Below are positions 34,029-59,343 of a DNA stretch of 64,000 nt, one piece after another; positions within the stretch are counted from its first letter, which is position 1, and each line of letters opens with the position of its first letter. Source of the stretch: Flagellimonas algicola. Lineage in GTDB: Bacteria; Bacteroidota; Bacteroidia; Flavobacteriales; Flavobacteriaceae. Made by a program: the position numbers and the translations under genes. The notes below the pieces were generated by a model. That model did not search any database and was not told the origin of the DNA. It saw nothing but the letters and a program-made list of their open reading frames with translations. The stretch spans positions 1,174,657 through 1,238,656 of the forward strand of contig NZ_VCNI01000001.1 of NCBI RefSeq assembly GCF_005937185.1, written 5' to 3'.

Positions 34029-34233
34029 GTTCTTTGATTTTAATTTTTGTCAAAACTAGGGTTGGAATACTTCAAGGAATATGACCATTATCATTGGACA
34101 CTGAACCCCCAGTAAAACCAGAGCATGCGCCCCTAAAAGATTTTACCTCACGCATCAAATTTGTTGCAAAACAAAAATTGGTCTATCCTAAGTGCCATAA
34201 TTTCCTTTATTTTGAATGGTAAATCTTTGCCCA

Positions 34234-35424
34234 ATGAACCCTTCTGCTTCCGGATGGATCAATAAGTTTGGACATCTAGTCCAAAAAGAGCGCCTACACT
34301 TCCCCGACTTTGAAAGTCTATACCAGGAACTGAAGAACAACGGGTTTATCTATGGCATCCACCTTGGGATTTCTGATTTTATTCCCGTACAGCACGAGCT
34401 CACGGAAGATGAAATAGCCAAAATAAACCTGTTGACCGCGCTTTATTATACGTTCAGGTTTGAAAAAGGAGAGGTGGAGTTTGACCTCTTTGTGAACACA
34501 GTTTTTGCTTATTACCAATCACTTGAAGTTGGAAAAATTTCATTTCTAAACAAGATTTTGGCGGGTGGTCACACAGAAAACCAGCTTGAAAAATTACTGG
34601 ATTCAAGAATCTATTTAGGGGGAAATGCATTTAACAGGGCTCTTGGGAACAGTTTGACCAATTCACTTCTTTATGTCGACATTCTCATTTTCAGGGTTTA
34701 CCTCAAAGGATATTCCCCCATCATGGAGCATGCCCAAAAGTTGGAATATGTGATCATGAACATTGCGTACCAGACCTTAAATTCGAAAGAAACGGATGAA
34801 AAGGATGCCAAACTGATGCAACTTTTGGCCTCTTCACTGACTTATGTGGATCTGAACAATGCAAATTTTGATGGTACCTATCGGGATTTATTGTGCTCCA
34901 ATTTCACTCCTGAAGAGCGCCAATATTTTTTGGATATGGCCTGCTTGACCATCTGGGAAGACCAGACATTGAACTACACAGAATCGGATTATATTTTTGG
35001 TCTCGGAACGGACTTGGAAAAGACCGAAAATGAGGTAAAATTGGCCTTGGAAAACGTGAAGGATTTCTTTGAAAAAAACAGGGATAAAGTATCCTATTTA
35101 AATAACAAGAATTTGGCCTCACAATTCTATGATGGAATGTCTAAAAACGTTAGCAAATTAATTCTCCGAAATAGCAAAAGATTAAAAAAAGAACTTGCTG
35201 AAAGTAAAGAATTGGTAACCTTATTATCTAAATCTGCGGTTAAGGAATTAAGTTCTGACGAAAAGAAAAAAGTTCAAAATCAGCTGTTGGATGTTTTCAA
35301 AAGTGTTCCTTCTTTGGCCATTTTTATGTTACCTGGAGGAGCGGTTCTTTTACCGATTTTTATTAAATTGATACCCAAATTACTCCCCTCTGCCTTTGAT
35401 GACAACAGAATTGAGGAGAATTAA
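34234..35424 (+). CDS. LETM1-related protein
   Basis: 396 residues from ATG 34234 (MNPSASGWINKFG); an ATG at 34216 would add six residues. The body is alpha-helical and acidic. The C-terminal part carries SVPSLAIFMLPGGAVLLPIF, the single hydrophobic segment with PGG that is typical of the LETM1 domain, followed by IKLIPKLLPSAF. Mitochondrial LETM1 takes part in K+/H+ or Ca2+/H+ exchange; flavobacterial proteins like this are annotated as LETM1-related and biofilm-associated, with no proven role. It stands alone between an outer-membrane gene and the convergent LytTR operon. Confidence 0.85.
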   Translation: MNPSASGWINKFGHLVQKERLHFPDFESLYQELKNNGFIYGIHLGISDFIPVQHELTEDEIAKINLLTALYYTFRFEKGEVEFDLFVNTVFAYYQSLEVGKISFLNKILAGGHTENQLEKLLDSRIYLGGNAFNRALGNSLTNSLLYVDILIFRVYLKGYSPIMEHAQKLEYVIMNIAYQTLNSKETDEKDAKLMQLLASSLTYVDLNNANFDGTYRDLLCSNFTPEERQYFLDMACLTIWEDQTLNYTESDYIFGLGTDLEKTENEVKLALENVKDFFEKNRDKVSYLNNKNLASQFYDGMSKNVSKLILRNSKRLKKELAESKELVTLLSKSAVKELSSDEKKKVQNQLLDVFKSVPSLAIFMLPGGAVLLPIFIKLIPKLLPSAFDDNRIEEN

Positions 35425-35515: not shown

Positions 35516-36271
35516 TCACTCTAACCATAACTTAAAATCTTTTACGCGCTCCCTACTTACTATAATTTCCTGCTCATTATACCGATTTAGCTTGATTTGG
35601 AGCCTGGAATTGGTGTAAGAAATGATGTCTTTGACGTGATTTACGTTCACATAAAACTTTCGGCTTACCCTAAAAAACATTTTGGGCGAAAGCTCTTCTT
35701 CCAAATTTTCCAAAGTGGTATCCAATAAATAATTTCTTCCTTCGGAAGTGGCCGCATAGGTTCCTTTGTTTTCACTGTAAAAGCATTCCACCTCGTCTGC
35801 ATTGATAATCTTCAGATGTTGTCCAACTTTTACCGTGAACCTTTTTTTGTACTCTCTTTCCAAAGGGTTTACCAAGAGCTTTTTTATATCGTTAAAATCG
35901 ACCGAAATTTTCTGGTTTCCAGGCTTAAAATTTTGATATTTTTTTATGGCACTTTCCAGCTCTTCATCATCTATTGGTTTTAACAAATAATCTATGCTGT
36001 TCAACTTGAAAGCTTGGAGTGCATATTCGTCATAGGCAGTAGTGAAAATGATAGCACTTTTTACCTCTACAATTTCAAAAATTTCAAAGGACAAACCATC
36101 CGAAAGTTGGATATCCAAAAAAATCAGATCAGGGTGGGGATTGTTTTGAAACCATTCAATGGATTCTTCCACCGAATGGAGCATCATGGAGACATGCACG
36201 CCCAAATCAGAAAGTAAACGGCTTAATCTTCTAGCTGCCGGTTTTTCATCCTCAATAATAATTACGTTCAT
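35516..36271 (-). CDS. LytTR-family response regulator
   Basis: 251 residues from MNVIIIEDEKPAARR (an ATG nine bases upstream would add three residues). The receiver domain (about 1-120) has the acidic pair EDE, phospho-acceptor Asp in LIFLDIQLSDG, Thr in IIFTTAYDEYA and Lys in YLLKPIDDEEL. The LytTR DNA-binding domain (about 140-250) has FTVKVGQHLKIINADEVECF and FFRVSRKFYVNVNHVKDI. It is the last gene of the 2TM/kinase operon, about 15 bases after the fourth 2TM gene, and is the evident partner of the LytS-type kinase at 37713. Confidence 0.93.
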   Translation of the reverse strand: MNVIIIEDEKPAARRLSRLLSDLGVHVSMMLHSVEESIEWFQNNPHPDLIFLDIQLSDGLSFEIFEIVEVKSAIIFTTAYDEYALQAFKLNSIDYLLKPIDDEELESAIKKYQNFKPGNQKISVDFNDIKKLLVNPLEREYKKRFTVKVGQHLKIINADEVECFYSENKGTYAATSEGRNYLLDTTLENLEEELSPKMFFRVSRKFYVNVNHVKDIISYTNSRLQIKLNRYNEQEIIVSRERVKDFKLWLE

Positions 36272-36286
36272 TATAGCCATTGTAAA

Positions 36287-36622
36287 TTAGTGTTCGTGGA
36301 AGCCGTTATTTTCTTTGTTCATAAACTCTTGCATTTTCCGGTGCTCCCATTTCGCGATCAACGGTCTACCAAACAAGGTAAGACCTTGAATAAGTATAAT
36401 TGCGGCCCAACTCAAGGTAATGGTCCAAAATTGCCAGTGCAGATAGTTGGCAAAGCCCACTTCCTGAATACCGGTTGCCTCTATGATCATGCGACTGGTA
36501 TCCGCCTTTACCAGCCATAATATGGTATTGACCAACAGGAATACAAAGACATGGGTGTAAAAACCCCTGATTTTCCTGGTCTTTTTCTGGGCCTTCTCAT
36601 ATTTTGCAACTTCCGGTTCCAT
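36287..36622 (-). CDS. 2TM domain protein (most divergent copy)
   Basis: 111 residues with two hydrophobic segments (about 26-42 and 72-90). It keeps the frame of the family, RKIRGFYTHVFVFLLVN at the first helix and a C-terminal AKWEHRKMQEFMNKE, equivalent to WEERKIKELME in the others, but the central G-W-G-I-G motif is replaced by TLSWAAIILIQG. Its ATG overlaps the previous stop by one base (TAATG), indicating translational coupling. Function unknown; see the 2TM array finding. Confidence 0.8.
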   Translation of the reverse strand: MEPEVAKYEKAQKKTRKIRGFYTHVFVFLLVNTILWLVKADTSRMIIEATGIQEVGFANYLHWQFWTITLSWAAIILIQGLTLFGRPLIAKWEHRKMQEFMNKENNGFHEH

Positions 36623-36927
36623 TAGCGGTACTTGTCCATTTCTTTTTCGTCCTCCTCAATATACTTTTGAATCTGTTTTTCCTCCCAATCCTTTCCAAAC
36701 AAAAGGTTGAAACCAAAAACTTTGGAAGCATGGAACGCCAGACCGATTCCCCAAGCCAATAAAGTTACAAAGTGGGGCCATTGCCAAAAGTCGTCCGTAT
36801 GCATATAGATATTCACCAAAATAAAGGTGTTGATGATTGTGTAAACGGCCAAATGGATGTAAAATCCTTTGAGTTCCTCAATCTTCTTTTTAGCTCTTTT
36901 GTATTTTTCTTGATCAAAATGTTCCAT
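36622..36927 (-). CDS. 2TM domain protein
   Basis: 101 residues from MEHFDQEKYKRAKKKIEEL; an in-frame ATG at 36939 lies within the end of the previous gene, while the one chosen has GGAG six bases upstream. Two transmembrane helices (about 25-42 and 52-72) are joined by a short loop; LAWGIGLAFHASKVFGF and DWEEKQIQKYIEEDE match the family motifs. Predicted topology has both termini in the cytoplasm. It is coupled by TAATG to the next gene. Confidence 0.85.
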   Translation of the reverse strand: MEHFDQEKYKRAKKKIEELKGFYIHLAVYTIINTFILVNIYMHTDDFWQWPHFVTLLAWGIGLAFHASKVFGFNLLFGKDWEEKQIQKYIEEDEKEMDKYR

Positions 36928-36929
36928 GA

Positions 36930-37232
36930 TTATCTCCATTTATTTTTATCCTCCCCCTCTTCCATCAACTGTTTTATTTTACGTTCTTCCCATTTTCTTC
37001 CAAAAAAGGGATTAAGGTCAAAGGTTTTGAGGGCATGAAAGAAAATTCCAATCCCCCATCCGAACGCGGCCCATAAAAACCACATATAACCAAATCCGAT
37101 GGTCAGGTAATTAATGAGAGCCAGTATTGAGATAACTACAATATAAGACCCCAAGTTGGCGTAGAATTTTTTTAGTTCATCTACGCGTTCCTTTGCCCTG
37201 ATATACTTGTTCTCTTTATTGAAATTGTCCAT
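36930..37232 (-). CDS. 2TM domain protein
   Basis: 100 residues: AKERVDELKKFYANLGSYIV at helix 1, FGWGIGIFFHALKTFDLNPF at helix 2, then RKWEERKIKQLMEEGED. Two transmembrane helices and cytoplasmic basic/acidic ends. It lies third in the array, ending two bases before the start of the following 2TM gene, and resembles both the 37274 copy and the tail of the histidine kinase. Confidence 0.87.
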   Translation of the reverse strand: MDNFNKENKYIRAKERVDELKKFYANLGSYIVVISILALINYLTIGFGYMWFLWAAFGWGIGIFFHALKTFDLNPFFGRKWEERKIKQLMEEGEDKNKWR

Positions 37233-37273
37233 GTTGGTTGGTGTTTAGCAAGGTTATTAAAGATAAGGATTCG

Positions 37274-37552
37274 TTAGAATTCGTTGCTGTTCATGTACTC
37301 CTTAATTTTTCGCTCTTCCCAGTTTTTTCCTAAAATGGGATGATGTCCGGTGGCATTCATCCACTGAGCGATTAGGCCTATCCCCCAACCTATGGCCGGA
37401 AAAAGTACCCAGGGAAAACTTGTTGTTTGGTAATTGACATACGCCAATATTGGAATAACAATACAATAGCTGATTAAGCTGCTGTAAAAACCTTTAAGTT
37501 CTTTGACTCGTTCTTTAGCTCTCTCGTATTTAAAGTCTCTATAATTTTCCAT
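37274..37552 (-). CDS. 2TM domain protein (closest to the kinase tail)
   Basis: 92 residues from MENYRDFKYERAKERVKEL (an ATG 21 bases upstream is possible). Helix 1 YCIVIPILAYVNYQTTSFPW and helix 2 PAIGWGIGLIAQWMN, then GKNWEERKIKEYMNSNEF. Of the four stand-alone copies it is the most similar to the C-terminus of the histidine kinase (which reads YCIVIPFLWWLNFRTTDFLW and GKRWEERKIKELMEKEDF), so it may have arisen by copying that tail. It is the first 2TM gene after the kinase. Confidence 0.87.
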   Translation of the reverse strand: MENYRDFKYERAKERVKELKGFYSSLISYCIVIPILAYVNYQTTSFPWVLFPAIGWGIGLIAQWMNATGHHPILGKNWEERKIKEYMNSNEF

Positions 37553-37673
37553 TTGTTTTATATTGATGTTCAACTTTGGTTTGAATTACACTTCAAAATT
37601 CGGAACAAACAGTTAGGATAAAAAAAGAGAAGGAGCCAATTGTTATTTTCTTGGGATGAGTTGTTACTGGGAT

Positions 37674-37715
37674 GAGATATGAGATATGAGACGTAAGACC
37701 AAAGACTAGAGACTA
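37674..37715. repeat. Six-unit heptanucleotide tandem repeat
   Basis: On the plus strand the units are GAGATAT, GAGATAT, GAGACGT, AAGACCA, AAGACTA, GAGACTA (pattern RAGAYNN), without gaps. The last unit supplies the stop codon of the minus-strand histidine kinase (CTA at 37713-37715). The word GGGATGAG is also repeated just to the left, at 37653-37660 and 37669-37676. Confidence 0.8.
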
Positions 37716-39056
37716 AAAATCCTCTTTCTCCATAAGCTCTTTAATCTTCCGTTCTTCCCAGCGTTTGCCCCAAAGCGGGTTTGTCCCGAAAGCTTCCATC
37801 CCGTGCATTAAGAGTCCAAAACCCCAGCCCAGTGTTGGAAAAAAGGCCCATAAAAAGTCTGTTGTCCTGAAATTGAGCCACCAGAGGAAGGGTATAACAA
37901 TGCAATAGGCCGTAAGGTTGGAATAGAAGTCCTTTATGGCCTTCACCCGTTCTTTGGCCTTTATATAGCGTTTTTCGGCAATGTAACTCTGCTGGGTCTC
38001 CACCACGCTCAAATTTTGGGTAAGCATAGGCAACGCCACACTGAATTTTAATTTGGTTTTACCAATTTCCACTGCTCTATCCGTTAAAATACTATAACGT
38101 TGCTTGATATTCTGAAGTCCCACCCCGCTACCTTTTTTGACGACCTGTTTTTCCTGAAGATTATTGCTGACCATTAGGGTTCCTGCTTTTTCTTCTACTT
38201 TGATGTGCAAGGGTTTGGCGGCTGTGACCACATTATGCTTCACCGCATTTTCCAATAGTAATTGTAAGGACAAAGGGACAATTTTGGCTTCAGGTATGCT
38301 GCTCTTCTCCGGAATATCAAAAACAATACTGTCTTCAAACCGCATCTTAAGCAACCTGACATAGGTACGTGCAAAGTTGAGCTCTTCGTCCACCGTTACC
38401 AGGTCCTTGTTTTTTTGCTCCAAAACATATCGATATACTTTGGAAAGCGATGTGGTAAACTTTTGGGCTTGGGAAGGGTCTTCCTCAATCAAGCTGGTCA
38501 AGACATTCAAACTATTGAACAGAAAATGGGGATCCAATTGATTCTTTAAGGCATCAAAGCGAGCGGAAGCGGAACCTGCAATGATTTTCTGCTCCTTGAC
38601 CCTTTTTTCCTGCCAATTCCTGTAGAAATAAAAGGCATGGAAAAAAACCGAAATAACAATGGTAATCAATAGGGCCACCACATAATAAATGGCCCTTTCA
38701 CCTGCGATGAAATCCTCCCAATTTTCGCCTTCAAAACCAATATTGATCACGATTCTTATCCAGAAAATTCCAAGCATGGTGAGAATCACACTGCCAAGTG
38801 CTCCAATGATCAAGCGGTACTTTGCATAGCGTTTCCATACCACTTTGTGATTCAGATAATCGTAATAAATCCCATTGATCATGCTTAACACAATGGAGTA
38901 GAATATGTAATACCCTATCTCACGGAAAAGGTCCATATCAAAAGATACCGACCTTCCCGAAAGCGCCCTAAGGCCAATAAATATTCCGGCAATAATTAGC
39001 CCTATCAGTATGGCTGTGGCCAATAACTTGCCGATATATTTTAGTGATATTTTCAT
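37713..39056 (-). CDS. LytS-type sensor histidine kinase with C-terminal 2TM domain
   Basis: 447 residues; the ATG at 39056 overlaps the previous stop codon (ATGA), preferred to an ATG nine bases upstream. N-terminal membrane region with four helices (about 10-145), then the His_kinase domain with phospho-acceptor His177 in QLDPHFLFNSLNVL, an ATPase domain with LLLENAVKHN (about 267-276) and KGSGVGLQNIKQRYS (about 308-322). The C-terminal 80 residues (about 362-447) are a 2TM domain: FYSNLTAYCIVIPFLWWLNF, TLGWGFGLLMHGMEAFG, RWEERKIKELMEKE. The catalytic core is therefore held between two membrane segments. It should phosphorylate the LytTR regulator at 35516, with four 2TM genes in between. 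Confidence 0.92.
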   Translation of the reverse strand: MKISLKYIGKLLATAILIGLIIAGIFIGLRALSGRSVSFDMDLFREIGYYIFYSIVLSMINGIYYDYLNHKVVWKRYAKYRLIIGALGSVILTMLGIFWIRIVINIGFEGENWEDFIAGERAIYYVVALLITIVISVFFHAFYFYRNWQEKRVKEQKIIAGSASARFDALKNQLDPHFLFNSLNVLTSLIEEDPSQAQKFTTSLSKVYRYVLEQKNKDLVTVDEELNFARTYVRLLKMRFEDSIVFDIPEKSSIPEAKIVPLSLQLLLENAVKHNVVTAAKPLHIKVEEKAGTLMVSNNLQEKQVVKKGSGVGLQNIKQRYSILTDRAVEIGKTKLKFSVALPMLTQNLSVVETQQSYIAEKRYIKAKERVKAIKDFYSNLTAYCIVIPFLWWLNFRTTDFLWAFFPTLGWGFGLLMHGMEAFGTNPLWGKRWEERKIKELMEKEDF

Positions 39057-39676
39057 TCGCCACATTGATTAAGGACAACCTCCGCCCGATCTTTTCCCCA
39101 AGAAGGATAGAAGGGTGTATCATTGCTAAAATTAGCAAAAAGTTCCAAGGACCTTTCTACGTCCTTACAATAGGGTGTTATATCCTTACCGAAATATTTG
39201 GCGCTGCCCATATCCCATTCCGCTTTGGACAGTATAACACGAGGATTTTGTGGTGCCATGGCCAGGGCCTGCTCGTACAATTGAAAATTCTTACCAGAAA
39301 GTGTCATCCCATACGTAGCTCCATCATAGGCAATCCAAGCCGTATTGATCAACGCCTCCAAAACTATCAACTCCGGATTGTCTGGAGAAATGGCCTTTGC
39401 CAAATCCAAAAATTCTTTTGCTTTTTCCAATTGATTGGATAGTTTTTCAAAATCTTTCTCACCAAATGAATGAATGGTATTGACGTGAGCCACATAATAA
39501 TGGGGAATCCAATTATCCTGTTCCGCCATGGCAATCCGTTCAAAAAGGTTGGAAGCCTCCGTGGGCTTTTGTTCGCCCCAAAGTTGAAATGCTTTTTGCA
39601 TTCCTTTGGCATACTGATCTTGGGCGGTTGCCACACTGGTTACACAAATAACTAGTACTACTAAAATCTTCTTCAT
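39053..39676 (-). CDS. Exported TPR-like protein
   Basis: 207 residues, signal peptide about 1-19 (ending in ATAQ). Helical repeats of TPR type: EQKPTEASNLFERIAMAEQD, LSNQLEKAKEFLDLAKAISP, NFQLYEQALAMAPQNPRVIL. No enzymatic motif. Its stop codon overlaps the kinase start (ATGA), so translation of the two is coupled, and it may present an envelope signal to the kinase. Upstream neighbour is the DUF2141 gene, four bases away. Confidence 0.8.
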   Translation of the reverse strand: MKKILVVLVICVTSVATAQDQYAKGMQKAFQLWGEQKPTEASNLFERIAMAEQDNWIPHYYVAHVNTIHSFGEKDFEKLSNQLEKAKEFLDLAKAISPDNPELIVLEALINTAWIAYDGATYGMTLSGKNFQLYEQALAMAPQNPRVILSKAEWDMGSAKYFGKDITPYCKDVERSLELFANFSNDTPFYPSWGKDRAEVVLNQCGE

Positions 39677-39680
39677 GGTT

Positions 39681-40100
39681 TTAAAGTTTTATAAGTTGCT
39701 GATTCGTTTTTTGATTGATGATGAATTTGGCATCTTTCCACTCCGGAGGGCCATATTTAGCCGGAGCCTGATTGCTACAGGCATAATTTTCCTTCGGATA
39801 AAAACCAAGGTATTTGTCCATTTTTCCGTTGTTGTTTTCATCATGATACACGGAAATGCCGTAGAATCCATACGGAACATTATCGAAAACAACCTCACAT
39901 TTACCATCCACAATAGTGCTGCTTTTGCTTTTGAAGGTTTTTTCCAACCAATTTTGGGCCGAGTCGTATAACCCAACCCGAAGCATTCCCTCATCACTTT
40001 CAATGTCTTGTATCTGCACTTTTAATGTGGCTGTGGTCTGTGCAGAGGCAATGGAAACCATACAGAGTATCATTCCGAAGCTTAAGATTGCTGATTTCAT
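39681..40100 (-). CDS. DUF2141 exported protein
   Basis: 139 residues, signal peptide about 1-20 (ending in ASAQ). It shows the DUF2141 core: LKVQIQDIESDEGMLRVGLY, FDNVPYGFYGISVYHDENNN, GKMDKYLGFYPKENYACSN and KYGPPEWKDAKFII, a small beta-sandwich with an acidic DENNNGKMD loop that may bind calcium. Function unknown. It appears to be the first gene of the operon that leads through the TPR protein to the kinase, 2TM genes and LytTR regulator. Confidence 0.88.
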   Translation of the reverse strand: MKSAILSFGMILCMVSIASAQTTATLKVQIQDIESDEGMLRVGLYDSAQNWLEKTFKSKSSTIVDGKCEVVFDNVPYGFYGISVYHDENNNGKMDKYLGFYPKENYACSNQAPAKYGPPEWKDAKFIINQKTNQQLIKL

Positions 40101-40208
40101 TACTTTTCGTTTTTATGATTTACACCCCAAAATTGGATCTAAGTCCTTTTGAAGCACAAAAAGAATGACTGAATTGTATGAATCAGTGGATGGATTGTTA
40201 GTTGGAAT

Positions 40209-55705: not shown

Positions 55706-55853
55706 GACTGTTCGTTATTTGATGCCACAAAATTGTCACTGTGCCTTTTTATAAACCAATCGGCAATACCCAATTGTAGAATTTTAGGGACGAACTGCTG
55801 TATGCCCATTTAGGAGAATGTTGGAATGCTAATTCCCGGGATTAACCGCTTTA

Positions 55854-55917: not shown

Positions 55918-58900
55918 ATCAAAAAGTACTGTTCCATAACCTTGGTATTGTTCCTTCTGGCACTTGGGCTACGGGGACAAGAAATTGCCATTGATAGCCT
56001 GCAGCGGATCTATCCTAATGCAGTCTCAGACTCTGCCCGCATCGGTATCTTAAAAAACATTTCTTGGGAATACATCAATAATCGTGGTAACCCTGATCTG
56101 GCCAAAAAGCACATCGATAGTTTTTATCATATTAGTAAAAGAGCCCGTATAGATTGGGGAGTTTCCCTTGCCAATTACCAATATGCCGTATTGGAAAGAC
56201 AAAAAGGGAATTACAATACCGCCCTTACCTATATTGAAAAATTTCTAGATTATACCCGAACTATAGATAAACCTTTTTCCCTTGCTAATGGAATGTACCA
56301 GAAAGCCGTCATCCTTGATGACCTTGGGAGTTCTGAAAAAAGTCTTGAAATTTATTACGACATTCTCAAAATCTACGAGACCCATGATGATTCCTTTAGT
56401 GTGGCAACCACCTTAAATGCTATTGGCGAGGTCCTTAAAAACTCTGGGAAAAAGTCCGAAGCCATGGATTCCTATAACAAGGCGTTATCCATTTATACCA
56501 ACTTAGGGGACAAAACGGAAATGGCGAACTGCCTTTTCAATATTGGAGATACCCACATGCAATTAAAAGATTACGACCAAGCTCTTAATTACTTTGAAAA
56601 GGCATTGGACTTAGATATAGAGACCAATAGTGAGTGGGGACAAGCCTATGATTATGAGGCCTTGGGCAAGGTCTATGCTTTCCAGAAAAAACATACCCAA
56701 TCTTTAGAATTTCATGACAAAGCCATTAGGTTAAGAAAAAAATTGGGGCTTCAGAAAGAATTATCCTTGAGTTACACTCAAATTGGAGCCGTAAATCTGG
56801 AAATGAAGAACTATGCCAAAGCAGAAACGAATCTAATCACGGCCATAACTATTGCCGAAGAAATTGGAGCCAAATCCGAGTTGCAAACCAACTATGATTT
56901 GCTTTCCCAACTTTATGAAAATACAGGGGATTACCAGCAAGCCCTGATCTTTAAAAATAAGTTTGTCACTGTAAAGGACAGCCTCTTCAATACCGAAAAA
57001 TCCAAGCAAATAGAGGAACTACAAGTACGATTTGATACGGAGAAGAAGCAAGATGCCATTGCAGCTTTGGAAAAGGATGCTGAAATCAACGACCTCAAAC
57101 TCAAACAGCAAACCACATTAAGAAACATCATCATTGGTGTTTCCGTAGCGGGCTTCCTGGTGCTTCTTTTTGTTTTTAACCGCTACAAACATGCACAGCG
57201 TGTAAAACAGGCCGATCAGGAAAAGAAAAGGGTCATTGAAGCAGAACGGAAAAGAACCGAAATAGAAAAACAGCGCGTTGCGGAACTCCAGAAAATTGAT
57301 ATCCTCAAGGACGAGTTCCTCGCCAATACTTCCCACGAGCTGCGAACCCCATTAGTTGGTATCATTGGGCTTACGGAATCCTTAAAGGATGGGATTGCAG
57401 GAAAGCTTCCAAAAACCGCCATGGATAACCTGGATATGATTGCCAATAGTGGTAGAAGATTGTCCCATTTGGTAAACGATATTTTGGATTTTTCCAAACT
57501 AAAGAACCAGGATTTGGAGCTTGCCTTACGCCCCGTGGATGTTCATGGAATATCCAATATTGTTTTGCAACTTTCCCAACCGTTGCTACAAGACAAAAAA
57601 ATAAAGCTCATCAATTCTATCCCCAAAGAGATTCCTTTGGTTGATGCCGATGAAAACCGCCTACAGCAGATTTTGCACAATCTCATCGGTAATGCCATCA
57701 AATTTACTCCAAAGGGATATATCACCCTTCTCGCAGAAACTAAAAAGGAGATGCTGTCCATTATTGTTTCCGATACGGGAATTGGAATTCCAGAGGACAA
57801 ACTTGAAACCATTTTTAATTCCTTTGAACAAGGGGACGGTTCCACCCAAAGGGAATATGGGGGCACAGGCCTTGGTCTCTCGGTCACCAAACAATTGGTA
57901 GAACTTCATGGAGGCACTATTGAAGCAACTTCTGAACAAGGCAAGGGTTCCATTTTTACGTTTGCCCTGCCATTGAGCAAAACCAAACGAAAGGAGCTAA
58001 ATAAGAAAAACAAATCCACCTTGGATTTTGTTCAAAATTTGAACAGTTACAAGGAAGTGGAAAATATCAAAACAACACAGCTTGATCCCAATCGAGAATC
58101 CATAAAGATTCTGGTAGTGGATGACGAGCCCGTGAACCGACGTGTTTTGGAAAACCATTTAACCATGGCCGGATATACCGTAGTGGAGGTAAGTTCGGGC
58201 AAAGAGGCTTTGAAGGTCATGGAATCAGAAACCCCATTCAACCTAATTCTCCTGGATGTAATGATGCCCGGTTTATCCGGATATGAGGTCTGTAAAAAAA
58301 TCAGGGAGGACTTTCCAGCAAGTGAATTGCCCATCATTCTTTTAACCGCTAAAAATAGGGTCAATGAGTTGGTGACAGGATTTGATGCAGGAGCTAACGA
58401 TTACTTGACCAAACCTTTTTCCAAAAATGAGCTGCTAAGTCGCATCAAAACGCATATCAATCTGAATACTATCCATCGTGCTACCTCCAAATTTGTCCCG
58501 ATGGAATTTGTACATTCCGTAGGAAAAGATTCTATTACAGATGTAAAACTTGGCGATCATATAGAAAAAAAGGTTACCGTGCTGTTTAGCGATATCCGGG
58601 ATTATACTCCTTTGGCGGAAACCATGACCCCGGCACAAAATTTCAAATTCGTCAATGCATACGTTGGTAGGATGGGGCCAATAATCAAGGAAAACCTGGG
58701 CTTTGTAAACCAATATTTGGGCGATGGTATTATGGCCCTCTTCCCAGAAAATGCAGAGAACGCCCTTGATGCGGCAATAGAAATGCAGCGCACCCTGGCG
58801 CTGTACAACAAGCGAAGAGTGGAAGAAAAGGGATATCAACCCTTAACTGTGGGTATGGGATTGCATTCAGGCCCGCTAGTTATGGGAATCATAGGAGATT

Positions 58901-59343
58901 CTAAAAGAAACGACCCCGCCGTAATTGCCGACACGGTAAACAGTGGTGCCCGGGTGGAGGGGGTTACCAAGCACTATGGTGCCAACATAATCATTAGTGA
59001 AAGTTGCCTGAAGTCTATGAAGGACTCCAGTGGTTTTAATTTTAGATATCTTGGCAAGGTAAAGGTAAAGGGCAAGCAAAAAGCCATGGGAATTTACGAG
59101 TGCATAGATGGTGATAGTATTTCCAGTATCTCCCTAAAACTGGAGACCCTTAAAGACTACAAAAAAGGGATTAAACTGTTTTTTGACCAAAAATTTGAAG
59201 AAGCCACCGAAGCTTTTGAGGAAGTGCTATCCAAAAATCCGAATGACTCCGTAGTTCAATATTTTCAGAACAAAGCTAGCATCTATGCCATTTCCGGGGC
59301 GCCAGGTAATTGGCAGTCCGTGACACAGATGCATGAAAAATGA
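55918..59343 (+). CDS. TPR sensor histidine kinase - receiver - class III cyclase fusion; start codon apparently ATC
   Basis: About 1141 residues. From ATC 55918 the chain reads IKKYCSITLVLFLLALGLRG, a complete signal peptide with a basic n-region; the first ordinary start, TTG at 55942, would remove that n-region. Domains: periplasmic TPR repeats (about 30-370), coiled coil and one transmembrane helix (IIIGVSVAGFLVLLFVFNRY, about 403-422), kinase with His473 in SHELRTPLVGI, ATPase (NAIKFTPKG, DTGIGIPED, GGTGLGLSV), receiver with Asp780 in LLDVMMPG and Lys in LTKPFS, class III cyclase (about 880-1060; VLFSDIRDYT, YLGDGIMALF) and a short C-terminal TPR. The purine-contacting Lys position is Gln932. 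The gene could convert a periplasmic signal into phosphorylation-controlled cyclic nucleotide synthesis. Confidence 0.88.
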   Translation: MKKYCSITLVLFLLALGLRGQEIAIDSLQRIYPNAVSDSARIGILKNISWEYINNRGNPDLAKKHIDSFYHISKRARIDWGVSLANYQYAVLERQKGNYNTALTYIEKFLDYTRTIDKPFSLANGMYQKAVILDDLGSSEKSLEIYYDILKIYETHDDSFSVATTLNAIGEVLKNSGKKSEAMDSYNKALSIYTNLGDKTEMANCLFNIGDTHMQLKDYDQALNYFEKALDLDIETNSEWGQAYDYEALGKVYAFQKKHTQSLEFHDKAIRLRKKLGLQKELSLSYTQIGAVNLEMKNYAKAETNLITAITIAEEIGAKSELQTNYDLLSQLYENTGDYQQALIFKNKFVTVKDSLFNTEKSKQIEELQVRFDTEKKQDAIAALEKDAEINDLKLKQQTTLRNIIIGVSVAGFLVLLFVFNRYKHAQRVKQADQEKKRVIEAERKRTEIEKQRVAELQKIDILKDEFLANTSHELRTPLVGIIGLTESLKDGIAGKLPKTAMDNLDMIANSGRRLSHLVNDILDFSKLKNQDLELALRPVDVHGISNIVLQLSQPLLQDKKIKLINSIPKEIPLVDADENRLQQILHNLIGNAIKFTPKGYITLLAETKKEMLSIIVSDTGIGIPEDKLETIFNSFEQGDGSTQREYGGTGLGLSVTKQLVELHGGTIEATSEQGKGSIFTFALPLSKTKRKELNKKNKSTLDFVQNLNSYKEVENIKTTQLDPNRESIKILVVDDEPVNRRVLENHLTMAGYTVVEVSSGKEALKVMESETPFNLILLDVMMPGLSGYEVCKKIREDFPASELPIILLTAKNRVNELVTGFDAGANDYLTKPFSKNELLSRIKTHINLNTIHRATSKFVPMEFVHSVGKDSITDVKLGDHIEKKVTVLFSDIRDYTPLAETMTPAQNFKFVNAYVGRMGPIIKENLGFVNQYLGDGIMALFPENAENALDAAIEMQRTLALYNKRRVEEKGYQPLTVGMGLHSGPLVMGIIGDSKRNDPAVIADTVNSGARVEGVTKHYGANIIISESCLKSMKDSSGFNFRYLGKVKVKGKQKAMGIYECIDGDSISSISLKLETLKDYKKGIKLFFDQKFEEATEAFEEVLSKNPNDSVVQYFQNKASIYAISGAPGNWQSVTQMHEK

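Follow-up and report, generated by a model that had tools for sequence, protein, structure and literature searches.

LytS/LytTR two-component systems such as BtsS/BtsR and YpdA/YpdB consist of a PF06580 histidine kinase and a REC-LytTR response regulator with a paired direct-repeat binding site, and they are the closest described relatives of a system encoded in a 64,000-nucleotide stretch of the Flagellimonas algicola genome (GCF_005937185.1, contig NZ_VCNI01000001.1, positions 1,174,657 to 1,238,656; hereafter the window). The three components are common to both. Unlike the known systems, however, the kinase of the window lacks a match to 5TMR-LYT, the sensor domain characteristic of LytS-type kinases (PMC10653868), it carries a 2TM domain (PF13239) as a tail after its ATPase domain, and its gene is accompanied by an array of free copies of this tail. 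The predicted circuit, in which the kinase operon, the array and an outer-membrane receptor gene stand behind the same putative regulator box, is well supported by the sequence comparisons described here. On balance we favor, with reserve, a closed-loop envelope-sensing two-component system in which the free 2TM proteins would exert feedback on the kinase by way of its tail. No description of a tailed kinase with a 2TM array was found in the open-licence literature, although an account elsewhere is possible, and a search of the same literature for 'PF13239' found no mention. Those papers on a '2TM domain-containing protein' that were examined concern 'Glycine zipper 2TM' proteins, and '2TM' in PMC11237479 and PMC9425974 (DUF4191) denotes other proteins.

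The operon and its predicted promoters

The operon occupies the minus strand and comprises genes for exported DUF2141 and TPR proteins, the tailed kinase, four free 2TM proteins (T1 to T4) and the REC-LytTR regulator (Table 1), and both the gene positions and the layout given in a preliminary description of the sequence are correct. The array had also been described there as graded, and identity to the kinase tail indeed falls along it from T1 to T4 (55, 47, 35 and 30%). The tail and the four free proteins score 54 to 109 bits against PF13239 (Pfam cut-off 24.8 bits); a scan with NCBIfam gave matches below cut-off only. The genome encodes 15 PF06580 kinases and 25 LytTR proteins versus six 2TM domains, five of which are at this locus, and thus their clustering here is not due to chance. 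The DUF2141 and TPR genes are 4 bp apart, the TPR gene overlaps the kinase start by 13 bp, and distances of 139 bp and 41 bp separate the kinase gene from T1 and T1 from T2. At the 3' end of the array, T2/T3 and T3/T4 overlap by 10 bp and 1 bp, respectively, and the regulator gene follows T4 after 6 bp. T1 may start at ATG 37552 in place of TTG 37573.

Relatives were compared in a set of 141 loci, made up of 60 loci from the best-scoring fused kinases (fused by choice), the best 80 of 577 kinase-alignment relatives and the window; 137 remained after identical kinases were dropped. Both upstream proteins of the window have a signal-peptide-like hydrophobic stretch at the N-terminus. Their proposed translational coupling to the kinase holds in part: a TPR gene adjoins the kinase gene in 91 of the 137 loci, but only 12 of these 91 overlap or abut it, so coupling is not general.

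In the kinase, H180 and N273 (the conserved histidine and the N-box) are invariant across 19 sequences. The enzyme had been called LytS-type, and its PF06580 catalytic part agrees with this; however, since a Pfam scan at E values up to 1 does not list a 5TMR-LYT domain for it, the label applies in a broad sense only. A structure model (mean pLDDT 75.8, pTM 0.41) contains four long N-terminal helices, a single helix (residues 357-401) joining the end of the ATPase domain to the tail, and further tail helices at residues 408-425 and 433-447. The model is too weak for placing the tail against the catalytic core, and such a placement was rejected. The 50 PDB matches listed for it are histidine-kinase entries, none of which usefully covers the tail. 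A crude hydropathy scan (19-residue window, threshold 1.3) gave three hydrophobic segments in the N-terminal part of the kinase, one in T2, two each in T1, T3 and T4, and none in the tail. Because of this last result, a membrane-crossing tail is supported by its 2TM family membership and by the helices of the model, not by the scan; both ends of the tail are presumably cytoplasmic.

The upstream regions of 135 operons, each of approximately 300 bp, were searched for direct repeats, and only the 21-bp period was prominent, with 171 repeats versus 23 in shuffled sequences. The box has the consensus TACARTTCATC, a spacer with AAAA, and TACARTTCGGTAA, its core ACARTTC being repeated at 21 bp. With at most two mismatches it is present in 96 of the 135 upstream regions, compared with 0.9 in shuffles, and eight other periods (18-20, 22-24, 31 and 32 bp) gave 0 to 13 regions. 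A chance origin of the repeats was rejected on the grounds of this period control and the shuffles. LytTR sites consist of two 9-11-nt repeats with 11-13-nt spacers (PMC4847170), and those of the LytTR Regulatory Systems are mostly 9-bp repeats separated by 12 bp (PMC6193735). The box therefore fits the geometry of LytTR sites, and it is a candidate binding site of the regulator.

A weight matrix was built from 74 operon sites and applied with a score cut-off of 14; no match above 10 occurred in 60 shuffled loci. A box was detected within 1.6 kb upstream of the kinase gene in 126 of 137 loci, a count that includes training sites, and in the gap between the kinase gene and the first free 2TM gene in 71 of 137. 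The gap and receptor boxes lie outside the training set. Boxes between free 2TM genes were limited to three cases, and none was found by the matrix between the last 2TM gene and the regulator gene in the 137 loci. Of the 43 boxes elsewhere on the operon strand, 40 are at the beginning of a gene for a protein of 716-749 residues. In Bacteroidetes the -7 promoter element has TTTG as its core, and this tetranucleotide is found at a distance of exactly 67 bp, counted from where the first ACARTTC begins, in 111 of 126 operon, 58 of 71 gap and 40 of 43 other cases. The longer pattern TAnnTTTG was dropped as too strict, plain TTTG being what reveals the fixed distance. The box centre is estimated to lie approximately 60 bp upstream of the transcription start, and a similar distance of approximately 60 bp has been reported for the promoter-proximal AgrA repeats (PMC4227749).

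The free copies thus probably possess, in addition to the operon promoter, a predicted regulator-driven promoter of their own. The gap box of the window is weak when taken alone, and its prediction draws on position, spacing and conservation; the best non-site in the window has a matrix score of 9.4, below that of the gap box (Table 1). In 134 loci with an array, the gap is at most 20 bp long in 47, none of which has a box, and longer than 60 bp in 81, of which 69 have one. Eight of the 71 boxed gaps exceed 350 bp, some of them with another gene inside. Loci with an internal box have on average 3.56 free copies (n=70) versus 2.05 in those without (n=60; Mann-Whitney p 1.5e-12, uncorrected for kinship), and class B of the 2TM paralogues defined below is present in 70 of the 71 gap-box loci. 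A gap box occurs in 34 of 68 kinase clusters at 70% identity. The sequences point to two designs, the array being simply co-transcribed in some lineages and additionally furnished with its own box in others, and in the latter activation should raise free 2TM proteins and regulator relative to the kinase. The box, the internal promoter and the link to the receptor gene are additions to what had been described before.

The receptor gene of the window (Table 1) encodes an outer-membrane receptor-like protein, and most of its nine relatives of about 720 residues are encoded behind the same box; other receptors were classed by length. A relative's receptor (locus L049) has CarbopepD_reg_2 and TonB plug domains, and the only PDB match of the window protein is a weak one to an 85-residue chain of a SusC homologue (E 8e-4). 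E values below 0.1 are attained in the genome of the window by two boxes only, those of the operon and of the receptor gene. In the loci retrieved by genome-wide box searches, the matrix gave 35 boxes, which precede genes for DUF2141 (12), TPR (7), receptor (5), kinase (4) and 2TM (2) proteins, a DUF2141/TPR frame (1), unassigned frames (3) or nothing (1). Because the census lists these genes, the predicted regulon in this sample is mainly the system itself and the receptor. A box at E<=0.05 was found in 82 of 100 genomes of the family, namely in 75 of the 76 with at least two 2TM matches versus 7 of the 24 with fewer; at E<=1e-3 the figures are 73 of 76 and 1 of 24 (Fisher 2e-18, cross-tabulated by eye). 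One genome (G094) has 2TM matches without a box at E<=0.05. Another (G006) has boxes at L293:8998, L293:11518 and L294:8000, one of them followed by a DUF2141 gene, and no array, and no kinase was recognized in the two stretches fetched; these boxes are possibly a relic or the targets of another regulator.

Table 1. Positions of the system's genes, domains and predicted promoter elements in the window
Feature	Position	Strand	Evidence and remarks
Response regulator, REC + LytTR	35516..36280	-	Pfam
Free 2TM protein T4, class D	36287..36622	-	PF13239 E 2e-14
Free 2TM protein T3, class C	36622..36939	-	PF13239 E 3e-26
Free 2TM protein T2, class B	36930..37232	-	PF13239 E 1e-31
Free 2TM protein T1, class A	37274..37573	-	PF13239 E 4e-29
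TTTG of gap box	37597-37594	-	+67 from box start
Candidate LytTR-type box, gap between kinase and first free 2TM gene	37629..37670	-	13.8 bits, E 0.3 genome-wide; score 22.4
Kinase 2TM tail, PF13239, residues 369-446, class A	37728..37961	-	E 3.2e-29; coordinates computed from residue range
Histidine kinase (PF06580) with C-terminal 2TM tail	37713..39065	-	PF06580 at residues 168-246
Exported TPR protein	39053..39676	-	Pfam
Exported DUF2141 protein (PF09912)	39681..40100	-	Pfam; N-terminal hydrophobic stretch
TTTG of sensor-operon box	40131-40128	-	+67 from box start
Candidate LytTR-type box, sensor operon (42-bp matrix window)	40163..40204	-	25.2 bits, E 7.2e-5 genome-wide; score 33.8
Outer-membrane receptor-like protein, 720 residues	53543..55705	-	55-77% identical to nine proteins of about 720 residues from relatives
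TTTG of receptor-gene box	55731-55728	-	+67 from box start
Candidate LytTR-type box, receptor gene	55763..55804	-	27.5 bits, E 1.4e-5; score 34.3

Distribution, paralogue classes and unfused orthologues

PF13239 matches were found in 219 of 249 sampled genomes of Flavobacteriaceae, the family of the window. The tailed kinase is present in all 137 loci, although fusion was not a selection criterion for the 80 obtained by kinase alignment, and the array is conserved in relatives, as the model in the preliminary description presupposed. In the 132 loci with the regulator in view, the number of free copies ranges from 0 to 6, with 0 in 2 loci, 1 in 18, 2 in 39, 3 in 35, 4 in 24, 5 in 9 and 6 in 5. 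Among the matches listed for order-wide (147 genomes) and class-wide (149 genomes) samples, kinase-sized 2TM frames are confined to families f1 and f2, the latter probably being Weeksellaceae by our guess. Of seven f2 loci, five have a clear box and two a weak one. Elsewhere in the class Bacteroidia, a 2TM match was found in 24 of 144 sampled genomes, mostly as a single gene with no kinase in view.

A midpoint-rooted tree of 517 2TM domains resolves clades A (all 137 tails and the T1-like copies), B, C and D, with 11 domains falling outside them. Support is 0.65 for A with B, 1.00 for B, 0.60 for C and 0.87 for D; because of these values and the midpoint rooting the class borders are approximate. 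The array of the window reads ABCD, and this order is kept in 366 of 376 within-locus pairs, compared with a maximum of 221 in 1000 within-locus shuffles; as class order is inherited, the 376 pairs are not independent. Its retention argues against a recent or decaying array. For 136 of 137 tails the best match is another tail (compared among loci with kinases less than 65% identical). Entropy per alignment column averages 1.39 in tails, 1.52 in A, 1.39 in B, 1.94 in C and 2.21 in D.

Unfused counterparts were identified in family f51 of the same class, where PF13239 was matched in 10 of 81 genomes. In the seven loci with full flanks, the 2TM gene lies directly upstream of a gene for a kinase of 343-387 residues without a 2TM match, a TPR gene precedes in five, and the regulator follows in six (none in L232). 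In two of these loci (L231 and L232) the 2TM frame is detected but excluded from the gene map by an overlap rule. A reverse search of the 81 genomes identified the orthologous kinase, at nearly full length, in these same seven and no others (E values of 4e-83 or lower; the match in genome G552 reads across one stop), the next match having an E value of 2.4e-52 and covering residues 97-358 only. Profile scores place the seven 2TM proteins closest to the tail or to class A. All seven loci contain the box, which precedes the operon in five and, in two, a gene heading the operon that encodes a protein of 722 or 747 residues; the 722-residue protein has TonB-receptor domains. A 2TM domain that is fused to the kinase in one lineage and adjacent to it in another suggests that the two parts work together, contact itself not being proven by this. 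The proposal that free 2TM proteins partner the kinase is partly supported, as it gains from these orthologues and from the gap box in 71 of 137 loci.

Other settings of the 2TM domain were found as well. The sixth 2TM gene of the genome (L189:6890-7821, contig C8) shares 4 bp with a dihydrofolate reductase gene, and in two relatives tested (L239:3944-4861 and L240:3374-4315) the two form one protein (PF13239 and PF00186), apparently a membrane-tied dihydrofolate reductase. A 786-residue protein from another class (L236:5989-8349) has an N-terminal 2TM domain and no further Pfam match. Several arrays contain additional genes, within the array or between the last 2TM gene and the regulator. An amidohydrolase-like gene of 378-393 codons is found in L026 (9687-10832), L073, L116, L128, L144 and L154 (labelled by Pfam in L026 and elsewhere by length and first residues), and a PEMT/ICMT-like methyltransferase gene in L184 (8115-8684). 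A DUF2306 gene (156-160 residues) lies in or after the array in L027, L105, L106 and L143 (by Pfam in L027, otherwise by length and first residues).

Proposed feedback and alternative explanations

In the favored scheme, the receptor together with the DUF2141 and TPR proteins would form the outer and periplasmic sensing side. The phosphorylated regulator would bind the boxes and activate the sensor operon, the 2TM array with the regulator gene, and the receptor gene, and rising regulator activity would yield more free 2TM protein relative to the kinase. The free hairpins may lie against the tail of the kinase or take its place in mixed complexes, and would thereby determine how active the catalytic core is, which has a presumed membrane anchor at each end. 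The contact between 2TM protein and kinase, and its sign, we infer. Feedback on the kinase through its tail is the simplest account, because the array box would raise free 2TM protein and because the unfused orthologues link 2TM protein and kinase. It is also conceivable, although more tentatively, that the system is self-tuning, with a regulator-driven promoter for graded tail paralogues that would act as a stoichiometric rheostat, each class having its own set-point.

Several observations weigh against the feedback scheme. The array box of the window is the weakest of its three boxes, with a genome-wide E value of 0.3 and rank five in the genome. The gap box is missing in 63 of 134 loci with an array, and only 6 of 23 kinase clusters at 60% identity have one, so it may be one clade's trait. 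Stand-alone 2TM genes without a kinase in view exist outside f1 and f2, and the fusions to dihydrofolate reductase suggest a general membrane-anchor role of the domain. As to the sign of the feedback, damping is preferred, by analogy with MgrB on PhoQ, although the data fix neither sign.

Another, unlikely explanation is that the free 2TM proteins are response effectors that protect or alter the envelope on demand, the tail being a side branch that senses them or the membrane. Free 2TM genes behind a regulator-type box would be expected of effectors, and the occurrence of the domain alone and fused to dihydrofolate reductase is in line with this; however, the boxes examined confine the regulon to sensing genes and the receptor, and the T1-like copies are akin to the tail in sequence. 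It seems less probable still that the free 2TM proteins hold and inhibit the LytTR regulator at the membrane, as HdrM and BrsM do, the kinase not being the target. The last 2TM copy lies 6 bp from the regulator gene, and LytTR Regulatory Systems have a membrane protein as inhibitor of their LytTR regulator, with positive autoregulation arising from direct repeats with 12-bp spacers (PMC6193735). Yet the fusion that takes the place of the orthologous free 2TM protein involves the kinase and not the regulator. Moreover, the regulator here contains a receiver domain and is paired with a kinase, unlike its counterparts in the S. mutans systems.

The drop in identity to the tail with distance and the range of copy number from 0 to 6 would also suit a by-product of tandem duplication, with copies drifting from the tail and having little function. 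This is highly improbable given that the class order is kept in 366 of 376 pairs, that class B is as conserved as the tail while D is looser, and that the array has its own promoter-type box in 71 loci. Under the feedback scheme, by comparison, PF13239, an uncharacterized domain, gains a testable role as a kinase partner, and the cell's reason for keeping graded copies becomes directly testable.

Neighboring genes and relation to known systems

Two further genes flank the system in the window. A 402-residue LETM1-RBD-like protein is encoded at 34216-35424 on the plus strand, convergent with the regulator gene, and a convergent frame of about 390-410 residues, judged by length, is found at the same position in many relatives. 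Divergent from the receptor gene lies an open reading frame of 1133 residues (55942-59343, plus strand) whose translation, judged by eye, resembles a combination of TPRs with histidine kinase, receiver and cyclase-like parts.

In coevolved F. johnsoniae, mutations were reported in the histidine kinase gene FJOH_RS09520 (lines 1, 3 and 4) and the LytTR gene FJOH_RS09515 (lines 2 and 5) (PMC10197871). These probably belong to another system, as the adjacent locus numbers leave no room for 2TM genes.

The locus points to a kinase that is anchored in the membrane behind its ATPase domain and whose anchor is also encoded as separate copies. For a system present in most sampled Flavobacteriaceae, it further provides predictions of the regulator's binding site and regulon. 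Parallels to its parts exist elsewhere. LiaF is a single protein, unrelated to 2TM and not fused to a kinase. Encoded with the kinase and regulator of LiaFSR, it is an accessory protein that tunes signalling (PMC3543457). The LytTR Regulatory Systems HdrRM and BrsRM likewise comprise a LytTR regulator, a membrane protein and direct repeats upstream of their own operon (PMC6193735), but they work without a sensor kinase, whereas a kinase and a receiver domain are present here and inhibition by 2TM is hypothetical. In the PhoQ/PhoP system, the small membrane protein MgrB belongs to the regulon and feeds back on the kinase (PMC8404706). MgrB, however, is a single unrelated protein of 47 residues, whereas the proteins predicted to exert feedback here are paralogues of the kinase's own tail.

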